Shown: piece by piece, positions 1 to 44,500 of the stretch
Position numbering within the stretch: the first letter of the stretch is position 1
Layout of the letters: every line of letters begins with the position of its first letter
Origin: Watersipora subatra
Lineage: Eukaryota > Bryozoa > Gymnolaemata > Cheilostomatida > Watersiporidae
Assembly (NCBI RefSeq): GCF_963576615.1
Contig: NC_088716.1
Location: 56,553,415 to 56,617,414, forward strand
Direction of reading: 5' to 3'
DNA length: 64,000 nt
Notes under the pieces: generated by a model
Told to the model about the DNA's origin: nothing
The model's database searches: none
Seen by the model: the letters and a program-made list of their open reading frames with translations, nothing else
Position numbers and translations under genes: made by a program

Positions 1-3000
1 AACTTCTTAGACATCATTTAGTATCTTTACACAGCTTTATATACAGTCGAATCTTGAAATATGCGTTTAATTAGCCTTGTATATCCATCTACATGTACTC
101 GTATGCCAATCGAAATAATCCTATTTAAAAGGTTTGAAATTGAATAAGTGTGTTCAAAAACTAAAAACATCTTGCTATTAGTTTAAATTATAAAGATAGG
201 CGTTTTAAATAATCAATAATTCCATATATTTTATCAATGCATGATAAAAGGAAAGAAAGAATTATAATAGAGCCACAAAGATATTCAATCATCACATCAA
301 TTTGCCTTTTCAGCTGAACTTCCATCAGTTGCATTTATGAGAAAGCCTTCGCTGCCGAATAAACACACGATGTAAATCAGGCCGTGTTCTCTTTGTGCAC
401 TCTATATGTAGTAACAGCTTCCCCTAAACAATAGCTCGTATCCCTAGTTGTAGCTCATGTGTAGTAACAGCTTCCCCTAAACAACAGCTCATATCCCTAG
501 TTGTAGCTCATGTGTAGTAACAGCTTCCCCTAAACAACAGCTCGTATCCCTAGTTGTAGCTCATATGACAAACAAAGATTCGACTCGAATCATGGTCCGT
601 AAACCAAAAAATCGGGTATTGAGCGGCTCGTATATTGAGGTTTGACTGTAAAGCATTTATTCTAATACTATATGTAATTCCCTCAAGTACTCATCATTAA
701 ATTTTGAAGCTGTGAAACGAATTAAATAAAAGTTAATAGATTCCTCTCCGAATATTTGCTCCAACATACGACATTTCTAATAAAGAAAACAAATACCAGA
801 ATGGAATACCTCCAGATGCTGAGTAATTGCATAGACAGCCAATATAGGTTATATTATAATACCTGGGACGTGTTCCCTTCCCCTTCTCACAGTGATGCAG
901 CACAATATAGGTTATATTATAATACCTGGGATGTGGTCCCTTCCCCCTCTCACAGTGATGCAGCACAATATAGGTTATATTATAATACCTGGGATGTGTT
1001 CCCTTCCCCCTCTCACAATGATGCAGCACAATATAGTTTATATTATAATACCTGGGACGTGTTCCCTTCCCCCTCTCACAGTGATGCAGCACAATATAGG
1101 TTATATTATAATACCTGGGATGTGTTCCCTTCCCCCTCTCACAATGATGCAGCACAATATAGGTTATATTATAATACCTGGGACGTGTTCCCTTCCCCCT
1201 CTCACAGTGATGCAGCACAATATAGGTTATATTATAATACCTGGGATGTGTTCCCTTCCCCCTCTCACAATGATGCAGCACAATATAGTTTATATTATAA
1301 TACCTGGGACGTGTTCCCTTCCCCCTCTCACAGTGATGCAGCACAATATAGGTTATATTATAATACCTGGGATGTGTTCCCTTCCCCCTCTCACAATGAT
1401 GCAGCACAATATAGTTTATATTATAATACCTGGGACGTGTTCCCTTCCCCCTCTCACAGTGATGCAGCACAATATAGGTTATATTATAATACCTGGGACG
1501 TGTTCCCTTCCCCCTCTCACAGTGATGCAGCACAAATTTTATCCACTGCTCGGCGAATGATAATAGAATTTCATTCTTCTTTTGGCCACAGCCTGCAGCT
1601 ACCCTGTTAAATTCCTGTCAATAACGACTAAAATATGTAGTGTATTAATTACAGTAGATGCTCCTACAGCGTAAACAATCCGTTCCAGAAACGCTTACAA
1701 TAATATAGGAATTTTACATTATACCAACAGTAAAATACACATAAATTGCCTAATATGTTCCATGACCTTTTCAAACTTAACCCATTAGTCCTTCAAAATG
1801 AATAAACAGACTAGACTTACCTTTTTAATTTACTTTTAGAAACCGTAACTGTAGTATTATTGGTTTGTATCGACAACTTGTATTGTTTCTTATCACTTTC
1901 ACTCAGTTCTCGGTCCATGAATATAGTAATTTTACAATGAAAACACACGACCTCAATGTCAATTCCCTCGACTATCTTTTTATTTTAGACAGCAAAGCCT
2001 ATTTTTCAAGAAGGAAAACAATAACAACGTTTTATATGTATAAAATAAAGTGAAACAAAAACGCAACTTTACTTTAAGAGCGATGTCTATCTGTCTATCT
2101 GTCTGTCCACCTATCCATCGAACAGGTTCAAGGTTATGATAGAATACAGCTTTCAACGATATTCCAACTCATGACATTCAGATCAGTAGATAACCACTCT
2201 AACACATGCACGGAATAATTGCACGACTACTCTACTTGTTATCTGTGCTCTATCAACACACCTTCTGACAATTTCTCATAGCGAAACAGACTGCCAGGGT
2301 ACTAGTTTTTATATAATAGAGGTAACAATATACGCCATTTTTTCTCGAAAACGACAGGTGGGAAAGAGATATTTCAAGGGCGTTATTCAAATCCAATCTC
2401 AGAACTTTTGCTGACTTCACACTTTACATTATATGAATTTTTTTTCCGTTGTACAAAGCAACAACTTTCTATAAATTCTTTACGTTATACGGAATTGTTG
2501 GAATGTTATAGGAGCGTCTAATGTACTATTAAATATGTAGCGTATTAAATACTATTAGAGTAATAAGATTAGACTAGCCTGAGAGACTAACATTGAAAAA
2601 GATCTTGTAGCGATGTTGATATGCAAATGATTATGGAAACATCAAGCCGCTACCTGGAGAAACTCGAAGCCAAAGGAATAGCACTGATGTAGAGTCTCTT
2701 TGTAAGCAGATTTAACAGTCTTCCTATCAGCGTCTGTATCAAGACTCTGCAGGTCTGTGCTGTCCAACTGATTTTCTACATGCTCTATCGCCGTTTTTAC
2801 ACCCTTTGCCAATTCAAATGCATTTGCCTGTAAATGAGCAAAGAACTCGTGGGGCTAACAATACGGCTCAGAAGATACACCGGCAAAAGGAATGGATAAT
2901 TATTAACAACCAGTATGCTGACATTGAGAGAACAGGCGTAATAACTATGTGTACAATTATTCGTAGATGTGCACATGGTGTTGCTTGGTGCAGCGGTAGC

Positions 3001-6000: not shown

Positions 6001-9000
6001 TCAGTAGCAGTAGTACTAGCTATTAGTAGCAATAGTACTTGCTATCAGTAGAGGTAGTACTTACTATCAGTAGCAGCAGTGCTTGCTATCAGTAGTGGCA
6101 TTACTTGCTATCAGTAGCGCCTGTATTTGCTATAAGTAGTGGCAGTGCTTGCTATCAGTAGCGGCTGTACTTGCTATCAGTAGCGGCAGTACTTGCTATC
6201 AGTAGCAGTAGTACTCGCTATCAGTAGCAGTAGTACTTGCTGTCAGTAGTGGCAGTACTTGCTATTAGTAGCGGCAGTGCTTGTTATCAGTAGCAGCAGT
6301 ACTTGCTATCAGTAGTGGCAGTACTCACTATTAGTAGCAATAATAACACCGTACTGTATACCAATAATATTGGTAAGATTTGTGAAAAACTCACTCCAAT
6401 GTGTGATAGAGCTATAGTAGTTTCCGTCTTTGGTTCAACGCTGATAACCTCACCCTCCCAAAAGTTTGCATCCTCACCAGTGTTACTAAGCAACAGATAA
6501 CCTAAAGTAAAAAAGGAAGAGAAAAGAGAGAGGCAAATTGATAATTCGCACGTTTTATAAACGGAGCGCCTATTGAGTTAGACACTCTAACCAAGTCTGA
6601 GAGCTTCATACCCCATTTCTGTAGATTAAAAAACCGAAATTTACCTTCTCTTGAAGCCTCGGCAGCGACATCCTCCCGACCACAGGTAACATCTAAGAGG
6701 GCGAGTAGAGTCTGTTTATCATCTTTGATGCAGTCAGGTGCGAGTATGATGTAGTTGGCTGTGTGAGGTACTATCACCTGATCAGCAATTCCATAGAGTT
6801 ACTTATGTAGAAATCAACTTATTGAGCATTAATTGAAACTAAATCAGGTGTTATAATGGGCTATGACTAGTACTGCAGTCAAACCTCTACATGCCAATTT
6901 TCAAACGCATTATGTGAATTTTAAGCAAATATTTGACTCCAGCCCCATAACAATTTACAATATTTGAAGTTGAAGGTGTTGTTAGAGTAGGTTATGTTCT
7001 GTACCTCTATCATCTCTCTGCCTCTTCCCTATACATTGCCAAACTTCACCTGTACTCATGTGTCTCTAAAGTACATCAACACAAACCTTCTTTTATTAAA
7101 AGCTTGTTAACTAATTTATTTTTTAAATCTCCGTTATGATGTGTTTGTTTGTGCAATGTTCTAACTGCAATGTTCATCAAGGAATTAGCAACACGAATTA
7201 ACTTAGGTTTAGAAACTGTGGAACCAATTAAACGAATTACGGTTTACTCTTCAAATGAATACAAAACGAATAAAATTCCTAAGAAGAGGTTCGACTGTAC
7301 AAGTTGTACTAGATCGACACTAAGAAATAGTGATATAGAAGTTCCCTTCACCATGCCAGCATGTAGGATTAATGACACCATGCAGAAAGGCACCTACAAT
7401 AGCTTGTTATACTGTGCTATCTAAACATGGCGCTATGCACGCAGCACTCGCCATGGCTTGTCATCTTCATCTATAATTCTATATATTCATGAGATGTTGT
7501 ACCAAACACTGTCCATTGAACACTTTACTAACATATATGGATATGCCAACAAGTAGTAAGCACTCACCCTGACATGTTTTGTGGATTGAAGAACTCTCAT
7601 CAGGTCAATGGACTTGATCTTCACCTCAAACTCTGCTGATATTTCAAGATCCTTGCGCAGTTGCTTAGCAAATCCTAAAGCTTTGGATGCCCACTCTCTC
7701 TTTCTTGTGAAAAGGGTTTTAATTTCTCTACATGTCTTAATAAGCATTTGCCTGTAACCAAAGAGCACCCTGTTTATGTAGCAGTACATGCTACACGCAA
7801 TACAGCAGGTCACTGTAGATTATCTGACACTGCAGAGAACCAGACACTGTAGAGAACCAGAGACTGTTGAGAACCGACAATGCAGAAAATCAGACACTGC
7901 AGCGAACCAGACACCATAGACAAAAAGACACTAGAGAACAAGAGACTGTAGAGAATGAGACATTGCAGCGAATCAGACACTAGAAAACCAGACACTAGAA
8001 AACCAGACACAAGAAAACCAGACACTAGAAAACCAGACACTAGAGAACCAGATACTGTAGAAAACCAGATACTGTAGAGAACCAGACACTACAAAACCAG
8101 ACACTGTACAGAACCAGACACTAGAGAACCAAAGACTGTAGAAAACCAGAGACTAGCGAACCAGAGACTGTAGAGAACTAGACACTGTACAGAACCAGAC
8201 ACTAGAGAACCAAAGACAGTAGTAAACCAGAGACTGTAGCGAACCAGAGACTGTAGAGAACCAGACACTGTACAGAACCAGACACTAGAGAACCAAAGAC
8301 TGTAGAGAACCAGAAACTGTAGCGAACCAGAGACTGTAGAGAACCAGACACTGTACAGAACCAGACACTAGAGAACCAAAGACTGTAGAGAACCAGAAAC
8401 TGTAGCGAACCAGAGACTGTAGAGAACCAGACACTGTAGAGAACCAGAGACTGTAGAGAACTAGAAACTAGAGAACCAGAGACTGTAGAGAACCAGACAC
8501 TGTAGAAAATCGGACACTGCAGCGAACCAGACACCATAGAGAAAAAGACACTATAGAGAACCAGAGACTGTAGAGAATAAGACATTGTAGAGAAACTGAC
8601 ACTAGAGAAGCAGAGACTGTACAGAACCAGACACTAGAATACCAAACACTGTAGAAAACCAGAGACTGTAAAGAACCAGACACTGTAAAGAACCAGAGAA
8701 TATAAAGAATTGGATACGTTAGATGCATATACCGCAGAGAATAGCTACCGTAAAACGTCTAATTGAACGCCATGACGCTCTATTTTTCAACTCTTCCACT
8801 ATAGTGGTGGCCAATTGGGAGCGGCGTTCAAATAGAGGTTGGCGGTGTATTTTTCAAACAGCTCGTCAGTATTTTTGGAAGATACATTTAGCCCTAACAC
8901 GGGTGAAGTGAATGTTGCCTATATTTTGCTCTCTTTTTTCGGCGTAGTGATATTAAACCTTTTGGATGCAGTAAATCTGCTAACTTACCTCTAACTTGTC

Positions 9001-12000
9001 AAAGATCCTTTAATAAATGTGCATCGAGAAATAGCTCTAGCAGTTAATATCTATTGGTTGCAATTGAACTGCGATGATATTATAGCCTGTGTCCTTCTTT
9101 GCAATCTGTTGGCATTTTCAATTTTTATTTCATTTTAAATTTGAAGACATATATTTATTTTATGTCTATATTTAACATTGCTGAATAAAAGCTCATTGCA
9201 CTCACTGATATGTTTGCTACAGTTTACAGCCAAAACTAGCTTTTTATGTGCAATAGAAGTGGAGTTATGAGCATCGATTCATTGTAAGCTGAGTTGAGAT
9301 AGCCGCAAAAATGCTATTGAACAACATGCAATAAATCTGCTTATTTAGAAGTTACACAACAATAATCTATCAAATGATACAAATATATATTCATGAACAA
9401 GTGACATAAACGAACCATACTTATATTACAAGCAGACACTAAAAGTAACATTTTTCAAACAATATTTTCATTGTTGCTTTCGATGAAACGAACATCTAGT
9501 TGTCTAATACCTTCCACAATATCTTCAGGCTTCAATTCTTCTTCTGAACTGCTGAACTAGTCGATATTAGCGTTTAAATAATTTTTTAGCAGAGCAAAAC
9601 TTTTACGCGCTGCATTTAGCACTAATGCAATGTATAAAAGTTTGCTTGCTAGCGTAATCTTTGGTCCAAAATTTGCGAACCGGGTTTTATATACATGTCC
9701 TTCAAAGTATTAGGACCGCATTAAACAAAGAACTACTATTAGCCCGAGACAGTAGTAATTTATATTATGTTGCTTTCAAAGTTCATCCACCATCGTAAAT
9801 GTAAGCCTTTTTTTTATATATTTAGGCTACTTCGAAGTAGAAAGGCTGCGTTAAACAGGGAGCTACTACTAGCCTGAGGTGTTGCTTTCAAAGTTTTAAC
9901 GGAAAAATGAAAAGCTATGGAATTAGACGAGAGAATTAAATGTTATTGATATAAACAATTCATTATTAATATAATATTGTGGACACTTTTTTTACTTATC
10001 AGTTGATTTTATGGACTCGTAAAGATCAAATAATGTCAAAGTGGTGGTCAAATGGAGGGGGCGTTCAAATGGAGAGTGGCGGTCTATTATTCAACCCTTC
10101 TCTCAGGCTGGCGGTCAATTGAAAGTGGCATTCAATTAGAGGTGGCGTTCAATTAGAGGTTTTACTGTAAATACTGGTTCACTATATCGCTGCATGTCGG
10201 AGTTGTCCTTTCAAAATTCATCCTCAACTATGTGTACCAGGGATCGATAGCATCGACGAAGCAACGTGGATATGTCGAGAAAGTTTGCAGCTGTCAAACT
10301 TTCCTGATATTTCGCCGAGCATCAATGACAACCTGTACTATGCATACGATTTCAGCAAAGGTAATTCACTGTGGCGGATAGCATGATTTATTTATTTCTG
10401 TTGAGGATAGAAGCTGACTAGTATTTGATTCGAGCACGCAGAAACAAGAGGTTTCTTCGAGAAAAATTAAAAAGAAAAATGAGAACACTAAGTCACGGAG
10501 TATTTGCTGATGCAAACGCGGATAGGTTTGTGATAGCGTGAACACCGTCATCATAGACGATCATCAAACTATTTGGTATCAACGCCAAGATACGGCGATA
10601 TAGCGTGAACCGACCTTTAGATACTAACCTGTAATGAGCTGTTGTACAGTAATCGTCAGTCAAGTGCTCCATATCAGAATCAATGTTGCAGAATGGATCA
10701 TTGGTGGGTGAGCATGGGCTATCCAAAAAGACAGTTGGATTACTGTTGAACAAAGCTCTATCTAGCTCCTGCTCTAGCTCATTCTGTATCCATTGTAGCA
10801 GCATGGAGCACATGCCACTGTCAATATATAAACAAAAGGCTTGGGATGCATCATACAGACAACTCATTAGCAATCAGCAGCAGGTAGTTAACAAAAAAAT
10901 TGCACGCACCAGAAGCGTTTGCTCGCCTCAGCCATGCCTCCAGTTATGAATGGACAAATCTCTTTGCAGAAGCTCCACTCTTCTTCGAGAAAAACCTTCA
11001 ACTGATGGGCGGTTGTCTCTTTCTTAAGGGTATCCATGCCGTATTCAACGTAGCCAAAATATACCTCGATTATTTCTTTCAAGTCATTGTTGAACCGCTC
11101 GATGTTTCTCTCAAAGAGTTCATCAGTGATCGCGTACTTCTTAGTAACAGGGGAGAGAATGTACTGGTAAGATTGCTTCACAGAAATGGCAACCTTGGCT
11201 GTCTCAGAACACTCGTGAACAACCTGCAAATATCAACATATGATTCCAAAATGGACAACTACAACTCAAGATGTCTACACAATCATTCATTCTACTTTCG
11301 ACCAAGAATAGAGTAAGATCCTTAGTTTTACCTGTCTGATGATGGGCAGTGATGGGTTGTCCACATGCTGCTCCAGTCGTAGCCTGAGACACTCGTGAGT
11401 GAGATCGAGTGGAAACCTTGCGAGGAAGACAAACATAGGAATGATGCTGGGCAACTTCATGCTTTGCCATTCAGGATAAAGAGTGAAAAATCCATCCATT
11501 GCATCTCGTTCTTGCACCTTTTGGTCTGCTGTTATGACATCTCCATCAGAGGAAAGTGGTAGGACATCACAGTGCTTTACATGCGGAGAGACCAACTGGA
11601 TAACAACAACAGAAAGTTATGTGAATAATATATAATACAGAAAGGTACAATACAGACATACATGTATATGATAAAGATATACACGATACAGATATGCATG
11701 ACACAGATGTGTGGTATGTCAGGGACATTATATAAGTACACCGGGGTAGGTCAGGGGAATTATATCAGTACACCGTGGTAGGTCAGGTGAATTATATCAG
11801 TACACTACGGTAGGTCAGGGGAATTATATAAGTACACCGGGGTGGGTCAGGTAAATTATATCAGTACAATGTGGTAGGTCAAGTGAATTATATCAGTGCA
11901 CTGTGTAGATCAAGTGAATTATATCAGTACACTGTGGTAGGTCAGGTGAATTATGTAAGTACACCGGAGTGGGTCAGGTAAATCATATCAGTACAATGTG

Positions 12001-15000: not shown

Positions 15001-18000
15001 CGCCCTGTTTAACCCAAGTGGGCAGTAATGCCTACTCAAGCTCAGGTCTCCTACGAGAGACCAAGAGGTTTGAGCTTTAGGGGCCTCCGAAGTTTTAGCC
15101 ATTCCCAATAATACACTTATTAGAACTCACTTGTGTTGATTGCTGATGTGCATGTGTTATTGCACCCAACGCTCCAATAACTACCAGAAATACATAGGCT
15201 CTCTCTCTATATACACATTGCATATATCTGCTCTCATCTATATATATATAAATCTTAAAGTTTGTGAGCTATTAAAATCTTGGAATGAAGACTCCGTATT
15301 GCAGAAGATTTGATCTTGGAACCTCTTGTTACCCTGACGATATGCTAAACCATTGAGCTACGCGAGATTGAGGGTTTCATAGGGCGATATGAATTATGTT
15401 GCTATGTGGGTGAAAATACGCATACCGCTCTCCATTATGGCGCATCCTAATGGAGAGCGCAACATCATTTTATGTTTGCTCTCATGGCTCTTATTAGTAA
15501 GTTTAGCAATAGGTTAATAGGTTACTAGCTTACTCAAATTAGCCATTGGCAATGTGCCAAGCTAATGGCAAGCAGCTACATAACCTGTCACTGTTTATAG
15601 GCTGATTTTCAATACCGATGCAACGCCGGATATTCCGCTAGTCTGGTGATAACTTGAGAATCTTTCTCCAGTTATCACCTGATGAGGGCAGATATATATT
15701 TGCTTAAAACATTCCAATAGTGATTAACTAACATCTAAGTGCTCTTTACATTTTATATTATAGTACATATGTAGATATGTACTGCTGAAGTAAATAATTA
15801 TAATAATAAAGATAATTACTCATAAGAACAGCCAATAAAGAGTATAAACGAAGCGAGCAAAAGAGCTAAGTAAGTGAATGTAATAGATAAAGAACAGATG
15901 GTAGCCTACCCGCTTATTCAGACTGTTGCCTGGAGAGTCATCACTCTCGGCTGTAGAAGGAGATTCAGGGGTGGAACCAACATCACCATCTGTGACACTT
16001 GAGTTCATCAAGGGTGTCCCTGCGACCTCTACAGGTTCTATGAATGGCCACGGTACCTGTATACAGAGAAAGCTATACCGTCTGCGAACCTACAGGCCAC
16101 TGTCTCACCTGTGAGCGTGCGCAGACAATAAACCTGCAAGTTTGAACCGAACTTTCTACAAGTAAGCAAACAAGTTGGATGCGACACCTGCAAGCATAGG
16201 CACTTGCAGGCATAGGCACTTGCAGGCATATGCACCTGCATGCATATGCACCTGCATGCATAGGCACCTGCATGCATAGGCACCTGCATGCATAGGCACC
16301 TGCATGCATAGGCACCTGCATGCATAGGCACCTTCAGGCATAGGCACCTTCAGGCATAGGCACCTGCAGGCATAGGCACCTGCATGCATAGGCACCTGCA
16401 TGCATAAGCACCTGCATGCATAGGTACCTGCATGCATAGGTACCTGCAGGCATAGGCACCTGCAGGCATAGGCACCTGCATGCATAGGCACCTGCAGGCA
16501 TAGGTACCTGCATGCATAGGCACCTGCATGCATAGGCACCTACATGCATAGGCACCTACATGCATAGGCACCTGCATGCATAGGCGCCTGCATGCATAGG
16601 CACCTGCAGGCATAGGCACCTGCAGGCATAGGCACTTGCAGGCATAGGCACTGCATGCATAGGCACCTGCATGCATAGGCACCTGCATGCATAGACATAC
16701 ATCTACATTTTATTTGTGTTAGTATATGCGCTTCATTATGCTCATCTCCACTTCCTTATTCGTGATTGGTTAATTCCACCAGTTACTAGTCTGCTATGAC
16801 TAAAAAGGCAAATCAGACTTTAGTAACTGATTGAATTAACCAATCAGGAATAAGAAATCGCTAGTTTTCAAATATTAATTATTATTATTTCTTTATTATT
16901 AAAATAAATAATTTTAATAAATTCATTTTATAGGCATATCTTCATCACAATTCCTATAGATAGCGCATTTTACTCATGCAATATCTTTAGGAAGAGAAAA
17001 TTAGTTGCCTGCAATACTATTCTAAAGTGAGTCAAAAATGACATTCAGACTTCTGAATAACTTTGATAAAAATGGCCAGCTGACTAGCAGTGGATAACTC
17101 CAAAGGAAAACAGGACTGTCATTAGCAAATACAGTCAAACATGGATAACTCGAACTTCAAGGGACCGAGCAAAAGTGTTCGAATTATCAGAGCATTCAAG
17201 TTATCAGAGCACTGTCACAAGTCCATATATTTACTTATTTATTAGTAGATACATGTACATATACAAACTATAATATAAATCAAAAGCACAAATGGCTTGT
17301 TTCAAATTAAATGCTTCTAATGTAAAGTTTAAAACGTTTTCATGAAAAAGTATAGAGATTTTTCTATCACTTGAGATTGGTTTGTTGTTTGAGGTGATGT
17401 TATTGCCAGGACGCTTTTCAGATTGACATTGGCAAAACTTGATCGTTGTTGAAATGCTCAAAAGAAAAGACATTTTTTTTTTGGGGGTTTTACCCACGAT
17501 CAATTTTGCCGTTTTTTCTTGAAGTTTATGCAGATTACCTTACTTTACCTGGGATTCGTTAAGAGCAACACTCCGAGGCAGTTCAATTAGAAGTTTTACG
17601 AGGTTTTACGGTACATTCTATATCACTCACGCTTTTTTAATAGATACTTATTGAATGTACACACGTATTCTGTGTTTAGGTCAAACGATGAATAGTTTTT
17701 TGTAGCTCAGACAACGTATACTTTTAATTACAACATTTTTTAAGACGTTTTAAACATTCAACATTCCGACGTTGATTCAACACGGAATCAACGTCGGAAA
17801 ACTATTCATCACGGGCTAGCCGAGTCACGCACTCAAGGATTTTCGCCACGCACATACAAAACAACATGCGATTTTTGTTTTGTATGTGCGTGGCGAAAAT
17901 TCTTGCGCGCGTGACCCGGCTAGCCCGTGCTATTCATCGTATGGCAGTATAAATCAAATTTCACCAAACTTTTAGAAAAGTCGTTGACAAAAATATTTTG

Positions 18001-21000
18001 CCGATGGTGGTAATAACGACGCTTATGAATTACGAAAAGATGAAGTTTACCTCTATGGCTTTGAATAAAGTGATTTTCTAAAGCGAAAACAACCGTTTCG
18101 GTAGCTGTTGGGCAAAAAAACAGTTCGAATTAACAGTGTTGAGTTCGAGTTATCTATAGCAATTTATCATTACGTGGGAACGGACCAAAGGAAATGTTCG
18201 AATTAACCATGTGTTCGAGCTATCCGTGGACGAGTTATCCATGTTTGACTGTATTGAAAACTATAACCAATACATGCTGACTGTTGTGTCATCACTTATT
18301 GCTAATCATTCTGTACTCATAAGTAGATATATTGTACATCAGAGGATGTTTTCTGTAACATCAAGCAAAACATTCTAATCATGAACTAACACAAATGACA
18401 AAAGCTGAGTCATTACAAATATAATCAGGCGAAGAGAGCTTAGCAAAAAGCAGCTAGTTTACTGTTGCGGTTGGTATGCGATGAGTTAAAAAAAATATTT
18501 ATTAGGTTCAACGCATTTTTGCTTTTAGTGTAATCTGACCTCATCTTATCCTTAACAAAGTTGTCCAGTCATATTTGCTTGTCCCTTCCATCATTTTAAA
18601 TGTGTTAGCATCTCTTAATGCTTTGCAATAGGGTTTAATCTAACTGGAGGTTAAATCAAATAACATTATTACAGTTATCTTTGTCAGCTGATGTACTAGA
18701 ACTGAAACTTGCAGTACAGAAATCACATGTGACAAATAGTTTTGCAAGCAGCCAACATTGACGAACAGACCGTAGGACTACGACAAATAAAATGATGCCT
18801 ATCCCTCATTTCAACCAGCGACACAAGCATGGCTATGGACAAAAGCTACCAATAGTGTAGATACTATACATACGCAAGACATCTTCTCTACGCCCATCGC
18901 CGTGCCAGCAATTTTGATGGCAGATATCAGTGCATACGTATTGTTTAGCCACATGTTGAGAGCGCTCACTCGTCTCTACAAAAAGCGGAGATATACTATA
19001 GGCATTTGTTGAGAGAGAAACACTGTTCATCTAGCAACCTTTTTAACTGTTTCGTCTGAAAAAATCTGTTAACACCATGTTATGATCTGTTAACACCATG
19101 TTATGCACACAGAGAGCTTTTTTATAGATGACAAATTTTAGACGGTTTGAAGGACTAGACTTCTTATAATATGTATATAAAAAAGACCAAATAGCCTGAA
19201 ATTCGGTGACTATATGTAGAAGACTTTGCCGCATAGCAATAATTAATATAATATCCATCTTCTAACGAAATTGTAGACTATTTATAAAATAAGATATGGT
19301 CGTTTGGATGATGCATGACAGGGGCTTGTTGTTCAAGGTCAAATCTCACGTGTGTTTCATTGCTTAATTCCGTGCCATTGAGAGTACTTCAAAAATAGAT
19401 CACCATCAGATAAAATATGTCTAAACTCTCATTAGCATTTTGTAAACGTAAGCACATCAAATGATGTATACATAATTTAATGACTAGTTGACACCAAGGA
19501 TGTTGTTTAATTTTAGACCAAACACACATGTATATTTTATCCAACTACAAGAGAAATCCTTCAAATAGCCTGAAACTTGGTGATTTTATGTAAAAGACTG
19601 CTACATAACATGGCGTTAACAGATCATAACATGTCGTTAACAGATTGTTGAGCATGAAAGTGCTCTAAATCACCGTGAAATAAAAAGCAAGGATGGAGAA
19701 TAGCTCACCTGATGATTTTCAGACATGTGCTGCACCAATTCCTTCGTCAGAGACTTACTAGTCGGGTAGAGTGACTCTATCAAATCTATCGACTCTAAAA
19801 CGTTTTTCACGGATTCTATGGCAGCTTCGATATTGTCCAGATATTCATCTGATATTTGAAAAGGATTATTTAGCATTTCCCTAAAATAAAATGAGATACA
19901 TCTGCAGAAATGTCTCAGAGACAAGCAACCACGTGATACTCGTTGCAAAGTCTGACTGTCGTTACTTACAATATGTTATCATCGACGTAGTGTCCCTCAG
20001 GCACAAACTCAAATTGGTCAATGAGGGCAAGCTTGGCAGGAGCCCTATCTCTGTATTCCCATAGCCTCTCAATGTAATCTTCCCTCCTCCTGCATACCAA
20101 CAGAGCATTGTGCAACCGTAAATGAGATCAGACACAGATACAGAATAGCAGAAGTGGCAGGCAGCAATAAATAGGGTGAAGAATGACCTACATCTTTTTA
20201 CGATAGGCTTGCAGAGAGACAAAGAGATTTTCTGGGCTCAGTTTATCCCAACCATTGAGCAAAATCTCACTGTGCTGTCGTGCATATGGGACCGGTTTAC
20301 TTGACAACATGCGACCTTTTTCTTCTCTGTCTTTGAATGCTTTCTTACCTGCGCAATAAAAATTCAAGCAAATTGTCAAAAAGTAAAACATATCAATCAC
20401 CTATGTCATAGTCTAGTAAAACATGTCACCTACCTATCTCATAGTCTAATGAAACATGTCATCTACCTACAATGTATCTTAGAGTTTAGTGAAACATATC
20501 ACCTACCTATCTCACAGTCTAATGAAACATGTCACCTAACTATCTTACAGTCTAATGAAACATGTCACCAACCTATCTTATAGTCTAATGAAACATGTCA
20601 CCTACCTATCTTAGAGTCTAATGAAACATGTCACCTATCTATCTTGAAGTCTAGTGAAACATGTCACCTACCTATCTCAGAGTCTAGTGAAACATGTCAC
20701 CTACCTATCTCAGAGTCTAGTGAACCATTTTACACACCTAACTTAATAGCCAAAACAAACTTCTTATGGAACATCTTTCTTTCAGATTCTCCATCCCTTT
20801 CTCTTGCGGTATCCCCACTCCCATGGCGTCTTCGTGACGAGTTAAAGCTTCCGATGCGCTGCCGAACTGTAGCAGCTGCACCGTTCTTGGCCATCGTTTC
20901 AATAGACAAGTCAGAAAGCTGGTGAAGATTCTCGACTCCAACACTGTCCAAATCTGGATCAATCGCGGCTGACCTGTATCACATTACAACCCCAATGGTA

Positions 21001-27705: not shown

Positions 27706-27855
27706 CTGTCAGGTATTTTTGCTAGAAAAGATCTTTCTAAGAAAGAACAAGAAGAGGATTTTCGGCTTCGAAAGGAGTTGAGAGAAACGAGGGAGGCAGA
27801 CCCAGATTCTGCGTACAAAATCAAAAAAGGGAAAATAATAAAAGTGAACAAGTAA
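27706..27855 (+). pseudogene. LINE ORF1, C-terminal fragment only
   Basis: Forty-nine codons (LSGIFARKDLSKKEQEEDF...IKVNK) end at TAA. The charged FRLRKELRETREADPD run is typical of the last residues of ORF1 (nucleic-acid-binding) proteins in this type of LINE. Everything upstream is lost, so the element is 5'-truncated and cannot mobilise alone. Confidence 0.7.
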
Positions 27856-27872
27856 TAACATCGATTAAAATC

Positions 27873-30602
27873 TTGCTGCTCAATGCTAGATCTGTTAGAG
27901 GCAAACTGAATGACATCCAAGTTCTGTCTTCGGAATATGATATATTGTGCATAACCGAAACCCATCTTGATCCATCATTTAATAATGAAATGATTCTGAG
28001 CTCTTCTCAAAAAATTATATACAGACATGATCGAGATTGTCATGGTGGTGGTGTTTTGTTAGCTTTGACAGCCAGTTTGCCTCAAGAACAAGTCTTTTTC
28101 AAAAGATCTTTCTTACCCGTTGAGGCTGTTTGTGTGAAAGTTGGATGTCCTAGAGATGAAAATGAATTTTTTGTTCTTTGTTGTTATGTTCCGCCTGGGC
28201 TGGCGAGAGAGGCAGTTGCACCACTTGAGGAATTGCTGGATTTTATGACCTCTGACTTTCCAGGGTCTAATGTACTAGTTGTGGGGGATTTTAATTTTCC
28301 AGATATAGATTGGTACAACCTACAAATTCGATCAAACTCAAATCAAAAACAATTGCATAGATCTTTTTTGAACTGCATCTTGTCTCATGATATGCGCCAG
28401 ATTATAATGGAACAAACACATCAGCTAGGAAACACTTTAGATCTAGTTATGACAAATAAGTCTAGTTTTGTTTATGACTACAGGATAATCAACCCCGGTA
28501 TCAGCGATCATTTTTTAGTTGAACTCTGTGTAGCAGCAAATTTTAAGACATCTCATGAACAGCCTTCTTTTATCAAATTATACCACAAGGCTGATTCTAC
28601 TGCTATTAAGGAGCTTTTGACTGATTCTCTGACAGATATAGTACAGGCAATTGAAAGTAAAACGAGTATCAACTCCGTCTGGCAGATTTTTGAGACGTCC
28701 ATGAATCTAGCTGTCAGTAGATTTGTTCCTAAATGTATCCCTAAGAAAAATGATAACAGGGAGCCAATATGGTTTAATAACTCAGCCAGGCGTGCAGTGA
28801 AACAACAGCGAAAACTTTATGACAGAAGTAAGCACACTGGGTTAGAAGTAGATTTCTCCAAGTATAAACAAACTAGGCGTACCAACAGAAAGAGTTTTCG
28901 TAAAATGGAGCAGGAATATTACCACCGAGTGCTGTTTGAACCCTTGGAAAGGGGTGATAGCAAACCATTTTACTCTTTTTATAGGCGGAAAACTGGAAAA
29001 AACTCACAAGGCACTGCGGTTTTCAAAAATAAATCAGCCTTAGAATCATCTGAGATTTTTAACGAATTTTTTCAGGGTGTTTTTTCAAATAGTGACTGTT
29101 TTTCCACAACTCAAACTGAACTTTCTGCAGATAAATGCCCTATACAAGTAACAAGTGATGGAGTTCTCAAACTTCTAAATACTCTTAAGCGCGGGAAAGC
29201 CCCGGGCCCAGATAAGTTTAGAAAAGAAGATCTTTGCCTAGAACCTGAAATTATTAGTAAGATATTGGCGAGCATATTCCAGTACTCGTTGAACATTGGA
29301 AAACTTCCAGATATCTGGAAAGTGGCCAATGTAGTTCCGGTACATAAAAAAGGCAGTCGGGAAGATCCGGGAAATTTTAGGCCCATATCTCTGACATGCA
29401 TTGCTTGCAAATTGTTAGAACATATTGTGCTTAGTAACATCAATAAAGATCTGGTAAATGTCATATATTCTAACCAACACGGTTTCAGAAAAGGCCTATC
29501 TTGCTCCACCCAGCTAGTCTCTACTGTGAATGAAATAATGAAATTAGTAGATAACAATAATATAGTACATGCAGCGGTACTGGATTTTTCTAAGGCATTT
29601 GACAAGGTGTCTCACGGCTTGTTGATCGACAAATTGATAAAATCAAACATAAACCCGTACATGGTAAATTGGATTAGGGACTTTCTGTCAAACAGACTCC
29701 AAAGAGTAGTGATAGAGGGTGCTGCATCTTCTGACCTGCTGGTTTCATCGGGCGTTCCACAAGGGTCTGTCCTCGGGCCCACCCTATTTTTGGTGTACAT
29801 AAATGATATCTCCGATAATCTAAATTTTTCTGCTATCAAGCTTTTTGCAGACGACGCTTTACTTTTTTCTCAGGTAAACACCCTTCAGGATTCAGTGAAT
29901 TTCCAGGAGGATTTAAACATATTAGACCAGTGGGCCTATAACTGGAAAATGAATTTTAACACTGATAAATGCCAAATCGTTCGTTTTGCAAGGCAGAGTA
30001 GCGGAAACCCAGATGTGGTGTATTACCTAAGTGGCAGACCTTTATCTGTAGTAGACAGTTTTAAATACCTCGGAGTTTTTATATCAAATGATTTTAATTG
30101 GGATTTACATATAGACTCAATCATATCTAAGGCAAGTCAGCGATTGGGAATGATGAAGCATGTTTTGTTTGATGCGCCGATGAGGGTTAGAAGGGTTGCA
30201 TATCTCACTCTGTGTAGACCAATATTGGAATATGCGAGTGAAGTATGGGACCCTCATTTGATGCGACAGGTAGCATCATTGGAGGCAGTTCAAAGAAGGG
30301 CGGTTAGGTTTATATCTGGTTTGAAAGGTAGGCAGAGTGTTACAGAGGCAAGAATTTTTATAGATCTAGAACTTTTAGAACTAAGACGCAAACATGCAAG
30401 AATGTCTCTCATGCTAAAGATTTTATCTGACGACTGCCATGAATCTCTTATCGAAAGTTTTAACCAAATACAAAATGTTCTTCACAGTCATGAAACAAGA
30501 CTGGTTACGGGGGGTGCTCCTTCAGCTGTATGTGCAAACACCGGGTTTTATATGAATAGTTTTTTACCTAGAACATCGCGCAACTTGCGCGGCTTACCAT
30601 AA
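27873..30602 (+). CDS. LINE ORF2: AP endonuclease plus reverse transcriptase
   Basis: About 909 residues without a stop. Endonuclease motifs: LLNARSVRGKLNDIQ, ILCITETHLD, GGGVLLAL, VGDFNFPDIDW, DLVMTN and NPGISDHFLVEL (the SDH catalytic motif). Reverse transcriptase motifs: VPVHKKGSREDPGNFRPISL, QHGFRKGLSC, AVLDFSKAFDKVSH, GVPQGSVLGP and FADD (catalytic). A C-terminal thumb-like part has FKYLGVFIS and RPILEYASEVWDPH. The frame continues upstream of 27873 and overlaps the ORF1 end, and 27873 is TTG rather than ATG, so the true start is unsettled. All key catalytic motifs are intact, so the insertion is probably young or under selection. Confidence 0.92.
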   Translation: MLLNARSVRGKLNDIQVLSSEYDILCITETHLDPSFNNEMILSSSQKIIYRHDRDCHGGGVLLALTASLPQEQVFFKRSFLPVEAVCVKVGCPRDENEFFVLCCYVPPGLAREAVAPLEELLDFMTSDFPGSNVLVVGDFNFPDIDWYNLQIRSNSNQKQLHRSFLNCILSHDMRQIIMEQTHQLGNTLDLVMTNKSSFVYDYRIINPGISDHFLVELCVAANFKTSHEQPSFIKLYHKADSTAIKELLTDSLTDIVQAIESKTSINSVWQIFETSMNLAVSRFVPKCIPKKNDNREPIWFNNSARRAVKQQRKLYDRSKHTGLEVDFSKYKQTRRTNRKSFRKMEQEYYHRVLFEPLERGDSKPFYSFYRRKTGKNSQGTAVFKNKSALESSEIFNEFFQGVFSNSDCFSTTQTELSADKCPIQVTSDGVLKLLNTLKRGKAPGPDKFRKEDLCLEPEIISKILASIFQYSLNIGKLPDIWKVANVVPVHKKGSREDPGNFRPISLTCIACKLLEHIVLSNINKDLVNVIYSNQHGFRKGLSCSTQLVSTVNEIMKLVDNNNIVHAAVLDFSKAFDKVSHGLLIDKLIKSNINPYMVNWIRDFLSNRLQRVVIEGAASSDLLVSSGVPQGSVLGPTLFLVYINDISDNLNFSAIKLFADDALLFSQVNTLQDSVNFQEDLNILDQWAYNWKMNFNTDKCQIVRFARQSSGNPDVVYYLSGRPLSVVDSFKYLGVFISNDFNWDLHIDSIISKASQRLGMMKHVLFDAPMRVRRVAYLTLCRPILEYASEVWDPHLMRQVASLEAVQRRAVRFISGLKGRQSVTEARIFIDLELLELRRKHARMSLMLKILSDDCHESLIESFNQIQNVLHSHETRLVTGGAPSAVCANTGFYMNSFLPRTSRNLRGLP

Positions 30603-36699: not shown

Positions 36700-36915
36700 C
36701 ATAAACGTAATGTCTGCCACAGATGCATGGATGTATCACACCGCAACAGAAGGGATGGACGTGTCTTTCTGCAGCAGACACATGACCATGTCACTCTGCA
36801 GTAGACACAGATGTGTCATTCTGCAGCAGGCACATGGATGTGTCTGCTGCAGAATGACACATGGATGTGTCAGTCTGCAGCAGATACATGGATGTGTCAT
36901 GCTGTAACAGACATT
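36700..36915. repeat. Degenerate 27-30-bp repeats (CAGCAGACACATGGATGTGTC)
   Basis: About six imperfect copies, some inverted (GTGTCTGCTGCAGAATGACAC region at 36840), in the space between the repeat-protein gene and the CELF 3' end. The rest of 35134-37494 shows no convincing feature. Confidence 0.7.
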
Positions 36916-37494: not shown

Positions 37495-38585
37495 CTAAAC
37501 TGAACACTGTTCCCTTGATTGTTCCAATACATACCAATAAGGCTTATTCTCATTTTTTGATCGCTTTAGTTGAACTTTTAAACGTTTCATTTTAATCTGG
37601 TAACCATTCATAGTAGCGATAGCTGCTTGGGCTGATGCTGGATTATCATAGCTCACAAAGCCTGCAATAAAAGTGTTTCTATGTAAATGCAATAGCAGAC
37701 AACTCCATCATAAAGCAATCAAGAGCTATTTGTGAGTTCTGGCCTATGTACAGATACATATCTACTATCTTCTAATTCCAGTCTGTCTTGCTATTTTAGC
37801 TACATCATCTACACCATTAAAGATACGCTTGTAGGAATTCTAATTGCTTCAGTTTAAAATACATTTTACTCAAAACTTCAATTTTTTGAGTTTGTAAATG
37901 CGAGTAGATTGGTCACAAATAGCAAGCCACTTCAGTAGTTCATGTCATCCCTTTACTTTCACTCTCGTGGTAGTTACAACATCAGAATTAACCAATGACT
38001 GATAAAGATGTAATTATCATTTCAATCTGCACATATTTCATTTTGTTAGTTTTTCATGGAAGCGCTGCAAGGCCGAGTTTAGCTCAACAGGTTTTTGCCA
38101 TTTTTGCATAACTCTTTAAACGTTGTTTTTTAAAATGAAACAAAAAAGAAGCTTATAATTCCTAATCATTGAATACAAGTTCTGTTCAAGATAGTTATAT
38201 GAAGTTACGGATTAATCATGATCGAGTTTGAACAGCGATGGTTCCTAGTACTTGCTGTTACTAGCACAATGTTTGCGCAAAAATTAAGGTGGCTACACTG
38301 TTTGTATCATGTTTATTATGCTTTCTCTATGGTAGTATAAGGAAAGAAGGCTACAAAGGTTCTTACCAAAACACTTGCTGAGGCTTGTCTGCTTGTCAAT
38401 AAAAACCTTGGAGCTAATGACTGTGCCAAAAGACTGGAAGTGATGAAGCAAGTCGAGGTCAGTGAAATCTTGGGGCAAGTGATAGATGAACAAGTTTGCA
38501 CCGTCAGGGCCTTCCGTTTGCTTTCCAGCGGGGGTGTCAGCAGCGAGAGCCGTCTGTACTGGTGCATATGCGTGTGGAAAAGAGG
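37495..38585 (-). CDS. CELF: CELF exons 13-14 encoding RRM3
   Basis: Exon 13 (38585-38367) encodes [17 protein letters not shown] and [15 protein letters not shown]. Exon 14 (37661-37495) encodes [20 protein letters not shown] and the basic tail [18 protein letters not shown]. The 13 extra residues [13 protein letters not shown] before TAG are not part of the usual C-terminus. Confidence 0.93.
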
Positions 38586-41500
38586 CTGGAATAGTAGAGA
38601 AACAAGCATACAAGTGCTGCGGTATGACCAAGGACAATAGGGCACGTGATACATAGCGGACATAACAAGCTTTGAAGACAAGACTGCATGCTGTTAGATA
38701 GCCAGCTACATACATCTGTGATAAGACATCTCCCTATTGTTATGTTATGAGAAATAACATTCATTAAGCAAATAACTTTGGAAAGTTATCACGCTGTCTG
38801 AGAGACCAATGGGTTTTTACATGTGCAAAACAAAACTCAAAACATTGGCGATCAACGTGCCTTAATCACCAGACAAACTAAAACAAATGGGACAGGAATA
38901 CACACAACACCTAGACACATGACAAATCACATAGACATGGGCAGACTAGATAAACATATAGAGCAAGACAAGGTGTGCTTTTGGGCTGTGTACCTGCATA
39001 TTGTGTTAGACCGCTGTAGGCTTGTGCGAGTGTGGCATCTATAGAGTGCTGCGTCTGCAGAGCAGAAATAGGCCCACCACCTAGAGTGTGAGCCGGGTAC
39101 CCGGCAAGGGGTGGCTGCACTGGTGCCCCGGCCAAGTTAAACTGTTGCTGCATTTGAGCCGGCGTCAAGGCACCACCAGCCGCAGGTTGAGGCGCCGCCT
39201 GGGCAACCGGTGCAACCGGAATGCCTGAAATTAACAGACATGAAAAGGTAACACAGATGCTGAACGTTAAGAGAGCGGTGAGTAGAGACCAAATCCATGA
39301 CATAGCCAGCCACCTCCGAGCATGCACCTTAGATGGTCAACGCAAAGATATGTACTGCCCAAACCAATACAGACGTGAGACCCGAAGCCACTAACCACCT
39401 GCTTTCACGCTATTGAACCTAAGAATAACAAGCTAAGAACCAGCACAGAAAGCATCACGTAAATTAACTCCCTAAAAATGGTGTCTATAACACTGAGGGA
39501 AATGAGTGTTACAGATATAGCAGCTATACTCGGAGTCGGGTAATCAGTAAAAGCCTGGAACAGAGGACAAGACAATAGGCAAGCGAGTAAGCAGACAAAC
39601 AGACAACAAACACACACACACATTTTTAAGGCGACAAAACTGAGCAAAGCTTTCGCGTATCTTAATTCATTACAGGACTAGGGCTGATAGGCTATGGCTA
39701 TACAGGATTTGCTGGGTGCTCGAGTGAAATGCTTGACTAAAGATAGCAGAGTGGGGAGCCAAGGCTACACGCCTAGCAATTCAATTCACCTGTGCTATTA
39801 CTAGACGTCGATGAGCTGGCTATTTTTAAATTCCCTAAAACAAATGGTCGCAGCATCACCACAGTTTTGCGAGTAGGCTTAAGACATAATGGCCATCATT
39901 GTAATCGATGCAGTGAAAGAACCAGCTAATGGTAGGTTAGTGAAATAAAGGGTTCATCGCTGCTTTTAAAAGTCTGTTACCTACATGTAAATTGAAGAAA
40001 ATTTTTGGCCATGGTATTTAAGTTTGCAAAATTTAGACTTTCTCTGTGTATAATTTCATACAATAAAACATTTACCGAGTATTACCATGCAGCTTTTTCA
40101 CATAATAAAACACCAGAAACTTGATTAGAAAATCAGCAAATAATTTTAATGCTTTTTGTCCAAAAAAGCTGTTGTTTACATTGTGGCACAGTAAGTATAT
40201 GGCAAGTTGAATATTCCTTATTTTAACTTGCTAACATTGTACATAAAAGTGAAGGAATTTTGAACTCGATCACAAATAATTTTTGTATATATGTAGAATC
40301 TGCTGATACACCATATACAGGTGAAGGCAGATGTAAATGAACTCGGGACTATTTTGAGCATGTTTTGCATTGCTTGTATTATGCTGTCTAAAAGTGAAGC
40401 ATAAGATCTCTTAATACCTAAATCAACGTAAAGCGGTTGACAATATTTTTTTACACAGGTTTAAGAGAGCCGAGCATTAAGCAGTTAACTATGACTAGTT
40501 TTTCCCTCCATATCATTAAAACTTTATAATGATAGGGTATGACAGCCAAGATAATTGCCTAAAAGCTTGGTTTTGTGATGTCCGTAAAGAGACAACCAGC
40601 CATTGCCGTAATCACTGTTTTATAATTACGATTTTTAAATTTAAAAGAAATCCAAGTTTTACCTATGTATTTAAGGACGTTACCAAAGCATGTATAGCCT
40701 TGAATATTTCTACATCACTTATCAGTGTAATCAGTGATATGCCAAGACTTTAATTGTAGTAATTTTAGGAAAGAAGGACGGTAATGTGCCCTATACAAAT
40801 AGAGAGACAACTCCACATTAAAATCTGACCTACCAGGCATAGAATTTATAGCTAATGTATGTCCATTGGTCGGGCTTGTCACGGTGCGTGTCATGGAAAG
40901 TGGTGTTGCACTGAGTGCTGGAATACCAATTAAACTCTGTCCCGTCAACATACCTGCATCAACGGAACATCTGCATTGCACGAGTGACAGGCTTTTAGAA
41001 AATGGATGTCAATTTTGTCCTGAAGATTTCCACTTTCTAAACTAACATCATTTAACTCTTACCCATATTCTGTAGGTTCTGCATGTTGTGGTAATTCATA
41101 GAAGCAACATCTAAAAAATAAACGAAGACGACCATCTTTAAACTAGCTTAATGATTGTCGTTTGTAAACTGTATCTGGAAAACTGTATATAATGAGCTTG
41201 CGGTAGCGAAATTCTACTTACCCATCGGATTAGGAGGCACTGTCAAACCCATTTGCTGCAACAACTACAAAACAAATAATAGTATTGCACCAAAAACCAT
41301 CGAAATCTATTTTTTTCTCACAAAAAAGACTGCAATCATGAATATAGATAAAGAATGAATCTATTCATATATACGTGAATCGTAAAGATATGCATCAGTA
41401 TATGCATACGAATAAACCTGGTTACACAATTAGGTTGCTTTGATGTCAACGAACGGTTTTTAAAGGCCAAAAAAAGGAGTCTACAAGGACAAACAAGTTG

Positions 41501-44500
41501 GATGCAATTGCTGCAAGGCATGAGAAACCTAATTTAACCTAAAAACCTAATAAAACAGAAAAACTGATTAACCGACAACAAGTTGAAAGTTTTTCTCGCA
41601 TGTTTGACTTTTGGAAAAAGATTTTACAAAAAGGAACAAACGTCGACAAAAAGATTGAGGTTCTAGTTTATAAAAGCTGCTATTTATGCGGACAGGTTGA
41701 GCTGAAGAGCATGGAAGACGTAACGTAAGCTGGCTGACATTTTTGCTGAATGCCATATTGTTGAAATCAATTAGCAGCTCGTGAGATAAGATGGATAGAG
41801 TTTATGGAGGCCGGTGATGCAAGAACACAAAGCAATTCCCATGACATGGTTTACAATCTATGCACTACATGACAAGCAATTACAGTCAGAGCTTGAAAAG
41901 GCTGAAAATTAAAATCTTTGGCAACCGCTAAACTATCACAGCAAAACACCTTCACTTTACCCACTTCTTGCATTTTCAGAATTACTAGCAATTTTAAACA
42001 ACAAAGAGCAGTTAATTCTTCAAAGAGCCAGCCGTTAGACGACGCTCACCAATGCTATGCAGAAATTAACTACATCTCTATAGAATAAATCAAGCTCAGC
42101 CAGGTGTAACAGCAATGAGCCTTTTGCTGCACATCACGTAGCATCTCATGTACTGCGACACAAAGCTAAGCTTTAAAGATGATAGTTTGAGATCCTTAAG
42201 ATGATACGTTAAGAAGTTTGAGACCTCTGATACTTACGGTGAATGACAGCTACACTTTGCACAGACAGTCATGAAATACTGAAGTTACCAGAGTTAATGA
42301 TTACGTTGATAGAAAATAAATTTAAAATAGTTACAGAACTTAATTTGTGAAAGAATTGAACAAAAGATCCCAGACAATTGCGACAGACTCAAAAAAGCTT
42401 CAACTTCCACAATGTTATTGCTAATTATTTGATATAAAAACTGTGTTGCATTGAAGCTGATATGAGTAGGACCTGCAGTGGGAGATAGGGATAAAGCTAA
42501 TGTGAGTGGTACCTGCAGGAAAAGATAGGGCACAAGTTAATAACGGATGGTACCTGCAGAAGGAGACAGGGCTAAATCTGATATAGGTGGTACGTACAGG
42601 AGAAGATAAGGCTAAAGCTGATATGGGTGGTACCTACAGGAGAAGATAGGATTAAAGCTGATATGGGTGGTACCTACAGGAGAAGATGGGACTAAATCTG
42701 ATATAGGTGGTACCTGCAGGAGAAGATAGGACTAAAGCTAATATGGTCGTACCTACAGGAGAAGATAAGGCTAAAGCTGACTTACTGCAAGGTACTGATG
42801 TGGCGACATCCCGGCTGGAAGACTGCTTGGGTAGGGATTTGCCGTAACGATATTGTTATTTGGAGGTAGCTTTATTCGAATATCTTTGTCTTTTTGAGTG
42901 TCAGCAAATTTCACTACAATTGGAGAGGCGCATCCCTGCAACAGATGACAACGTATTTTAATTTAGTACCAAGTACTGTCAATAAGAGGTTTAAGATAAG
43001 ATATTAGGAAAAGAGAGGCTTACTTCCATTGTGAGATTGTGATGCATACTTTGTATGGCACTCAGTGCACTTTGCCTAGATGCGAATGTCACAAACGCGC
43101 AACCTGCAACAAAAGAGATGATATTCTTACTTAAAATATTAAGTCAATCAAGGTAAAATAAAGGTGATAACAACAAGAAATAAACCCAACACAAAAACAA
43201 GAAAGATTTTTCATGAGGCTACGATCCTCAGTGCTCAGAAGCCAACTAAAAACCATGTCATTGTCTGTTAAATCAACCAAAGCAATTAGATGAATTTTTA
43301 GCAATAGGTAACTTTGTAGGTAACATGGTGGGATGAAAGGAACCATTACAAAATAATAGATCACATCAGACTTTCTAGGTGACATGTTAAGATAAAAGGA
43401 ACCATTCCAAACTAGGAGATGATATCAGTCTCGATGGTCACGGCTGGCGGAGAGACTACTATGAGATTAGACAAAAGCATTAATGGTGAAGATGAAACAC
43501 ATCTGACTTGTAGAAGTATTAGCTAAACAGGGTAAGAGAAAGGACAAGAGAAAGATAAGGGTAAAAGAAAAAGGTAAACAGGGAAAGAACGAAGTATCAG
43601 ATAGAGCAAAAAACACCAGAGGATAATGAAAACAAAGAAAATGGTGAGAACAAAAGCTAAGAGACAGCATAGTATGCATAGATGCAACAGATGCATAGTA
43701 GAAAAATGGAAAATAGGAGAAAGAAACGGAGAACAGGAGAGAGAGAGAGAAATGGAGAATAGGAGAGAGATAGAGAAATGGAGAATAGGAGAGAAAGCGA
43801 AATGGAAAATAGAAGGGCGTGAGAGAGAGAAAAACGGAGGGCGTGAGAGAGAGAAAAACGGAGGGCGTGAGAGAGAGAAAAACGGAGGGCGTGAGAGAGA
43901 GAAAAACGGAGGGCGTGAGAGAGAGAAAAACGGCGGGCGTGAGAGAGAGAAAAACGGCGGGCGTGAGAGAGAGAAAAACGGAAGGCCTGAGAGAGAAAAA
44001 CGGAAAGCCTGAGAGAGAGAAACGGAAAGCCTGAGAGAGAGAAACGAAGGTCTGAGAGAAACGGAGGGCGTGAGAAAGACACTGAAGGCCTGAGAGAAAT
44101 GGAGGGCGTGAGAGAGACACTGAAGGCCTGAGAGAAATGGAGGGCGTAAGAGAGACACTGAAGGCCTGAGAGAAATGGAGGGTGTGAGAGAGACACTGAA
44201 GGCCTGAGAGAAACGGAGGGCGTGAGAGAGACACGGAAGGCCTGAGAGAAACAGAAGGCGTGAGAGAGAGACTGAAGGCCTGAGAGAAACAGAGGGCATG
44301 AGAGAGAGAAACGGAGGGTGTGAGAGAGAGAGAGACACTGAAGGCCTGAGAGAAACGGAGGGTGTGAGAGAGAGACACTGAAGGCCTGAGAGAAACAGGG
44401 CGTGAGAGAGAGAAACTGAGGGTGTGAGACAGAGACACTGGAGGCCTGAGAGAAACGGAGGGTGTGAGAGAGAGACACTGAAGGCCTGAGAGAAACAGAG

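Follow-up and report, generated by a model that had tools for sequence, protein, structure and literature searches.

A 63-bp tandem array across a MAP3K4 exon end and its splice donor, probably a mirage-type minisatellite

Introduction

Minisatellite-like tandem copies of an exon/intron boundary have been described in amphioxus as mirages. The cases reported are Adh3, the globin genes BflGb6 and BflGb9, TnC and PGBD5 (PMC3087553, PMC3902484), TnC and the PGBD5 repeats being added by the second of these papers. Many of the repeats carry AG/GT signals, and concerted evolution within the array is described. According to the same reports, normal splicing is undisturbed in Adh3, the globins and TnC, and the authors infer the same for PGBD5. 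Mirages have also been proposed as a source of new introns (PMC3087553). The AGGT model of intron gain is recounted in another paper, together with the case of vertebrate ATP2A1 and with that of fission yeasts, where multiple 24-bp AGGT duplicates stand in tandem and have introns (PMC4974935), and changes of human gene structure driven by minisatellites have been described as variable internal tandem repeats (PMC2812944).

We describe here a related structure in MAP3K4 (MEKK4), found within a window (the whole stretch of DNA analyzed) of 64,000 nucleotides. It shares with the amphioxus mirages, as these are described, the tandem copying of an exon/intron boundary, the AG/GT signals and the concerted evolution and, with BflGb9 in particular, the duplication of the 3′ boundary of an exon. 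It differs from them in the gene concerned and in having a unit that is open in the frame of the gene. Its 11 units of 63 bp contrast with the 150-160 bp of the globin mirages (BflGb6 having 6 repeats in one haplotype and 3 in another), with the 10-72 bp of Adh3 and with the 60 and 108 bp of PGBD5. As in the AGGT intron-gain cases given in PMC4974935 (ATP2A1, fission yeast SPOG_01682 and SOCG_00815, potato RdRp), tandem AG/GT segments are able to supply the GT and the AG of one intron; unlike those cases, the MAP3K4 segment spans an existing exon/intron junction at the donor, has no acceptor-like tract and is studied here as DNA. The human variable internal tandem repeats of PMC2812944 are alike in that minisatellite expansion alters exons, introns and splicing patterns, whereas they concern paralogues in segmental duplications studied with transcripts and we deal with the DNA of a single locus.

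A literature search that took in a minority of the subscription journals gave no report of a minisatellite in MAP3K4. As there are earlier examples of similar exon-edge repeats, which according to the reports leave splicing undisturbed, we regard the array as an attractive natural test case and not as a new system. It extends the series of mirages reported for amphioxus by a case in MAP3K4, and it may show how tandem AG/GT units, the proposed raw material for new introns, might persist harmlessly. It also lends itself to the study of splice-site choice as an experiment of nature: 11 donors that share a 17-base core follow each other in steps of 63 nt, so that any preference among them must come almost wholly from position, and the product of every donor is in frame and countable in cDNA.

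Results

MAP3K4 gene and the exon that carries the array

The window holds only part of MAP3K4, on its minus strand. The open reading frame (ORF) of the exon that carries the array matches the Pfam family MEKK4_N (PF19431) with E = 6.8e-14, ORF residues 12-43 aligning with profile positions 1000-1031. Upstream, ORF 2642-2854 matches profile positions 929-987 with E = 1.4e-4, its 20.1 bits being below the curated cut-off of 24.9. Ten further minus-strand ORFs were searched against Pfam; four match MEKK4_N, over profile positions 291-337 (weak, E = 0.057), 516-590, 589-690 and 730-793 (the other E-values being 7.9e-15, 7.2e-20 and 7.7e-9), in collinear order, and six have no match. The C-terminal kinase domain of MAP3K4 would fall past the low end of the window. 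Weak Pfam matches of the repeat ORF itself (Annexin E1, FAS_I_H, HD_5, DUF5948) were discarded as products of repetition, no single stretch passing alone.

The exon carrying the array starts after the acceptor TTATTGACAG/GAATTT and ends TCCCAG/GTATTATA (the slash marks the splice junction). Its acceptor and phase were assigned by eye, the phase following from the end of the preceding exon (Table 1).

Table 1. Features of the MAP3K4 exon and of the 63-bp array (positions in the window)
Feature	Position	Strand	Remarks
Preceding MAP3K4 exon	2654-2827	minus	174 nt; ends CAG/GTAGCG, phase 0; MEKK4_N match
MAP3K4 coding exon	1493-1614	minus	122 nt; begins in phase 0, ends 2 nt into a codon (AG)
63-bp x 11 tandem array across exon 3′ end, donor and intron start	836-1535	minus	TRF and donor-anchored alignment
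Array copy 1	1473-1535	minus	native exon end 1493-1535; native donor and 20 nt of intron 1473-1492
Ten additional array copies	843-1472	minus	each with donor CAG/GTATTATAATATAA, all in frame
Intron after array	733-842	minus	array frame continues to stop codon 733-735

Anatomy of the array and variation among its copies

TRF reports the array with a period of 63, 11.1 copies, 95% matches and no indels. When copies are anchored on the donor, 11 are counted, each exactly 63 bp from the next, and the first intron base (the G of GT, minus strand) is found at 1492, 1429, 1366, 1303, 1240, 1177, 1114, 1051, 988, 925 and 862. Each unit comprises 43 nt of exon and 20 nt of intron (TTGTGC...CCCAG/GTATTATAATATAACCTATA). 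The 17 bases CAG/GTATTATAATATAA are identical in all of the copies. The ends of the array join other sequence cleanly, and the repeated segment is bordered by TTG on the exon side (ATTTGTGCTG) as well as on the intron side (TATATTGGCTG). Past the array, on the intron side, TRF finds a 53-bp unit in three copies at 407-564.

An earlier note on this DNA had recognized the gene as MAP3K4, which the collinear MEKK4_N matches bear out, and had described an 11-fold 63-bp repeat with a duplicated donor. The duplication of the donor is confirmed by the common register of CAG/GT in every copy. The 11-fold count holds as a number of copies at exact spacing; as the exon itself is copy 1, only ten are extra, and the 0 to 11 additional units that had been predicted become 0 to 10. 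Instead of 39 nt of coding sequence and 24 nt of intron, the unit is divided as given above, and the array occupies 836-1535 instead of 841-1610, the exon having limits of its own (Table 1).

In the 693 bases of the 11 copies there are 14 differences from the consensus, confined to five variable columns. Copies 1 and 6 are identical over 63/63 bases and both equal the consensus; copies 2, 4 and 8 form a second identical group and copies 3, 5, 7 and 9 a third. As to homogenization at the borders, private variants are carried by the two copies of the far end (10 and 11), yet copy 1, on the exon side, equals the consensus and copy 6. The alternating identity groups suggest a recent expansion by two-unit (126-bp) steps that left out the far end.

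The same variants bear on the possibility that the copy number is the product of assembling a shorter or a longer repeat. One amphioxus mirage appears to be misassembled in the draft genome, according to a supplement legend of PMC3087553. The units of the MAP3K4 array carry distinct, patterned variants and its ends are clean, and an error could affect no more than the number of copies; we consider an assembly error very unlikely.

A mirage-type minisatellite as the best explanation

Three of the features by which mirages are described are seen in the array: each of the 11 units takes in some exon and some of the neighboring intron, AG/GT signals are present in register throughout, and the identical groups of copies point to concerted evolution within the array. 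The exact 63-bp spacing, the identity of the exon copy with the consensus and the wealth of minisatellites in the window give further support. The array is, with good probability, a young mirage, that is, a minisatellite born across an exon/intron boundary, in which copies 2 to 11 would be intronic passengers and the exon's own donor would be the one mostly used.

From the array, the register, the frame and the variants observed, we infer an order of events, a donor choice and a tolerance of the array. A duplication with 3-bp TTG ends would have copied the last 43 nt of the exon, the donor and 20 nt of the intron. The TTG at both borders would fit a duplication at a 3-bp microhomology, and the exon is taken as the source because the exon part of the unit is the part that Pfam matches. 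Replication slippage or unequal exchange, partly via two-unit blocks, may then have raised the number of copies to 11, copies 2 to 11 coming to lie in the intron as passengers. The donors sharing their core sequence, the spliceosome would tell them apart almost only by position, and the exon's own donor would be expected in most transcripts because use of the last donor would imply an exon of 752 nt. If exons are recognized as units, size favors the first donor (122 nt against up to 752). The array would be tolerated because its unit is 63 = 3 x 21 nt, is open in the gene frame and has AG/GT at the same place in each copy; use of any donor, or the loss of whole units from AG/GT to AG/GT, would keep the downstream frame.

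Reading frame of the array

The frame is open from the acceptor of the exon through the array to the stop codon. All 11 donors would give exons of 122 + 63k nt, which leave a remainder of 2, and the longest of them, which contains the others, is open. The proposal of the earlier note that any donor could be used without a frameshift is therefore upheld, as is the formal match to the substrate of the AGGT tandem-duplication model, given that the stretches between neighboring donors run from GT to CAG.

These lengths favor a reading in which several of the 11 donors are used as alternatives, so that MEKK4 would exist in isoforms lengthened by 0 to 10 units of 21 aa (14 residues plus YYNITYI) before the kinase domain. 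The openness of the frame says little in this respect. Of the six frames of the array, three contain no stop codon, including two on the antisense strand, and when the intronic 20 nt was replaced by random 20-mers from the introns of the gene, the unit was open in 69.6% of 20,000 draws (about 23% with the added condition of a multiple of three). As the unit is 63 bp long, an open frame in one copy almost ensures an open frame in the others, and the result does not amount to 11 independent facts. Selection for an open frame was rejected as evidence on the grounds of the open frames and of the random draws, and the open frame is weak evidence for use of the units.

The variants also stand against alternative donor use. 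When the extended frame is translated, four of the five sites show non-synonymous changes (AGG>AAG, ACA>CCA, CGT>CAT and ACC>AAC, the last in the intronic part) and a single one a synonymous change (CAC>CAT). CGT>CAT (R>H) modifies the RPR motif and is present in copies 3, 5, 7, 9 and 10, which makes five of the ten extra copies. This pattern is as expected without coding constraint, five sites being too few for a real test. In addition, the published mirages are reported with normal splicing (PMC3087553, PMC3902484).

Splice signals and the choice of donor

Pairing with the 5′ end of U1 was computed for six donors picked by eye. The native donor of the array is the weakest of these, with -7.2 kcal/mol against -7.7 to -11.2, in a comparison that leaves out a seventh donor near 10.91 kb, which has unsettled borders and may be weaker than that of the array. 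The donor near 10.63 kb (CAG/GTTAGT), whose ORF has no Pfam match, pairs with -10.1 kcal/mol. A decoy GTGAGA within the exon part of the unit scores -4.4. Pyrimidines make up 25% of the 20 nt before the CAG of the unit, against 60, 65, 50 and 50% at four native acceptors. RNA folding of the unit and of its dimer was no better than that of shuffles (z = 1.49 and 0.45).

With a weak donor and poor acceptors, use of a downstream donor is conceivable and splicing between units appears unlikely. Sequence would hardly guide the choice among donors, because the 17-base core is the same in 11/11 copies and copies 1 and 6 are equal over their whole length. Both the weak donor and this lack of discrimination favor alternative donor use. 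As the native donor is the weakest of the six compared, downstream copies could compete with it, which counts against the passenger status of copies 2 to 11. Selection for use could likewise explain the conservation of all 11 donors, the units being nearly identical throughout anyway. Weighing these signals with the frame, the variants and the published mirages, we consider it unlikely that several of the donors are used, and the gain of extra 21-aa units that the earlier note had put forward as possible finds no support.

A further form of the same idea is an in-frame, self-expanding donor array in which the number of copies sets the possible 21-aa gain in MEKK4 and in which donor choice would be almost purely positional because the donors are identical, amounting to a coding VNTR (variable number tandem repeat) that acts via splicing. 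If it were true, the sequence preceding the kinase domain could vary from one individual or cell to another; we find it quite unlikely.

The tandem AG/GT units might also act as 63-nt introns, from the GT of one copy to the AG of a later one, or as recursive splice points, following the AGGT model of Rogers. Every donor-to-donor stretch indeed starts with GT and ends with CAG, and precedents are given in PMC4974935 (vertebrate ATP2A1 and the fission-yeast 24-bp AGGT duplicates with introns across them). However, the extra copies are already intronic, and removal of a unit would only shorten the intron unless a distal donor were used; moreover, the acceptor-like pyrimidine tract is missing. Such a birth of introns at this locus seems extremely unlikely. 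The mirage-type minisatellite remains the preferred explanation of the array.

Minisatellites of the window and the part of chance

The window is rich in minisatellites. Eleven arrays, picked from 52 TRF rows (period of 10 or more, roughly five or more copies), cover 6844 of its 64,000 bp; one of them, at 36755, has 1.9 to 7 copies depending on the period. We assigned random positions to the seven larger arrays found in the first 21 kb and counted the exon edges covered, the borders of the six exons (12 edges) having been read by eye and the donor of the exon at about 10909-11223 being unsettled. At least one of the 12 edges was covered in 83.2% of 20,000 trials, with a mean of 2.6 edges. Exon 19709-19880 rests on the match with E = 0.057 and exon 2654-2827 on one below the Pfam cut-off; the value was 75.9% when the former was omitted (ten edges) and 84.1% when the 3-copy array at 407-564 was added. 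As this null drops finished arrays at random, unlike their real origin, it tells us no more than that an excess is absent. We rejected a special targeting of the exon edge, since chance would be enough to cover one edge in a gene of this kind. An overlap with an exon edge is not unexpected by chance in a minisatellite-rich gene, which tempers surprise at the array.

A repeat-derived origin of the unit was considered and rejected: in the 2 kb flanking the array on each side, no match of the unit is significant (score 20, a score reached by 21 of 60 shuffles), and three fragments of the array have no exact match elsewhere in the window. Among 14 minisatellite units chosen by hand, AGGT is present in 5 on the minus strand (6 occurrences) and in 3 on the plus strand (4 occurrences), about 2.1-2.2 occurrences being expected per strand; the enrichment is too weak and the units too hand-picked for it to be claimed. 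Two of the 14 units have a period that is a multiple of three; as three other arrays can also be read by TRF with a period of 24, 27 or 54, we draw no conclusion from the periods.

Some other repeats of the window carry motifs that resemble splice signals. A 17-bp array of about 54 copies (7811-8697) ends about 60 nt upstream of the Pfam-supported MAP3K4 exon 7568-7751, and its gene-strand unit, TCTGGTTCTCTACAGTG, is pyrimidine-rich and ends in CAG like a splice acceptor. A 16-bp array of about 32 copies (16185-16694) has a consensus unit, CCTATGCATGCAGGTG, with CAG/GTG on the strand of the gene (minus). Another array, with about eight copies of 40 bp (42454-42780), has a minus-strand unit that contains TATCTTCTCCTGTAG/GTACC, which resembles a recursive splice point. 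This array sits between two minus-strand ORFs, 38293-38733 and 44848-45195, that match RNA recognition motifs (E = 2.3e-6 and 4.8e-5) and that resemble a CELF/Bruno-type gene. The window also contains a non-LTR retrotransposon-type open frame of 953 aa (27741-30602) in which both an endonuclease and a reverse transcriptase domain are present.
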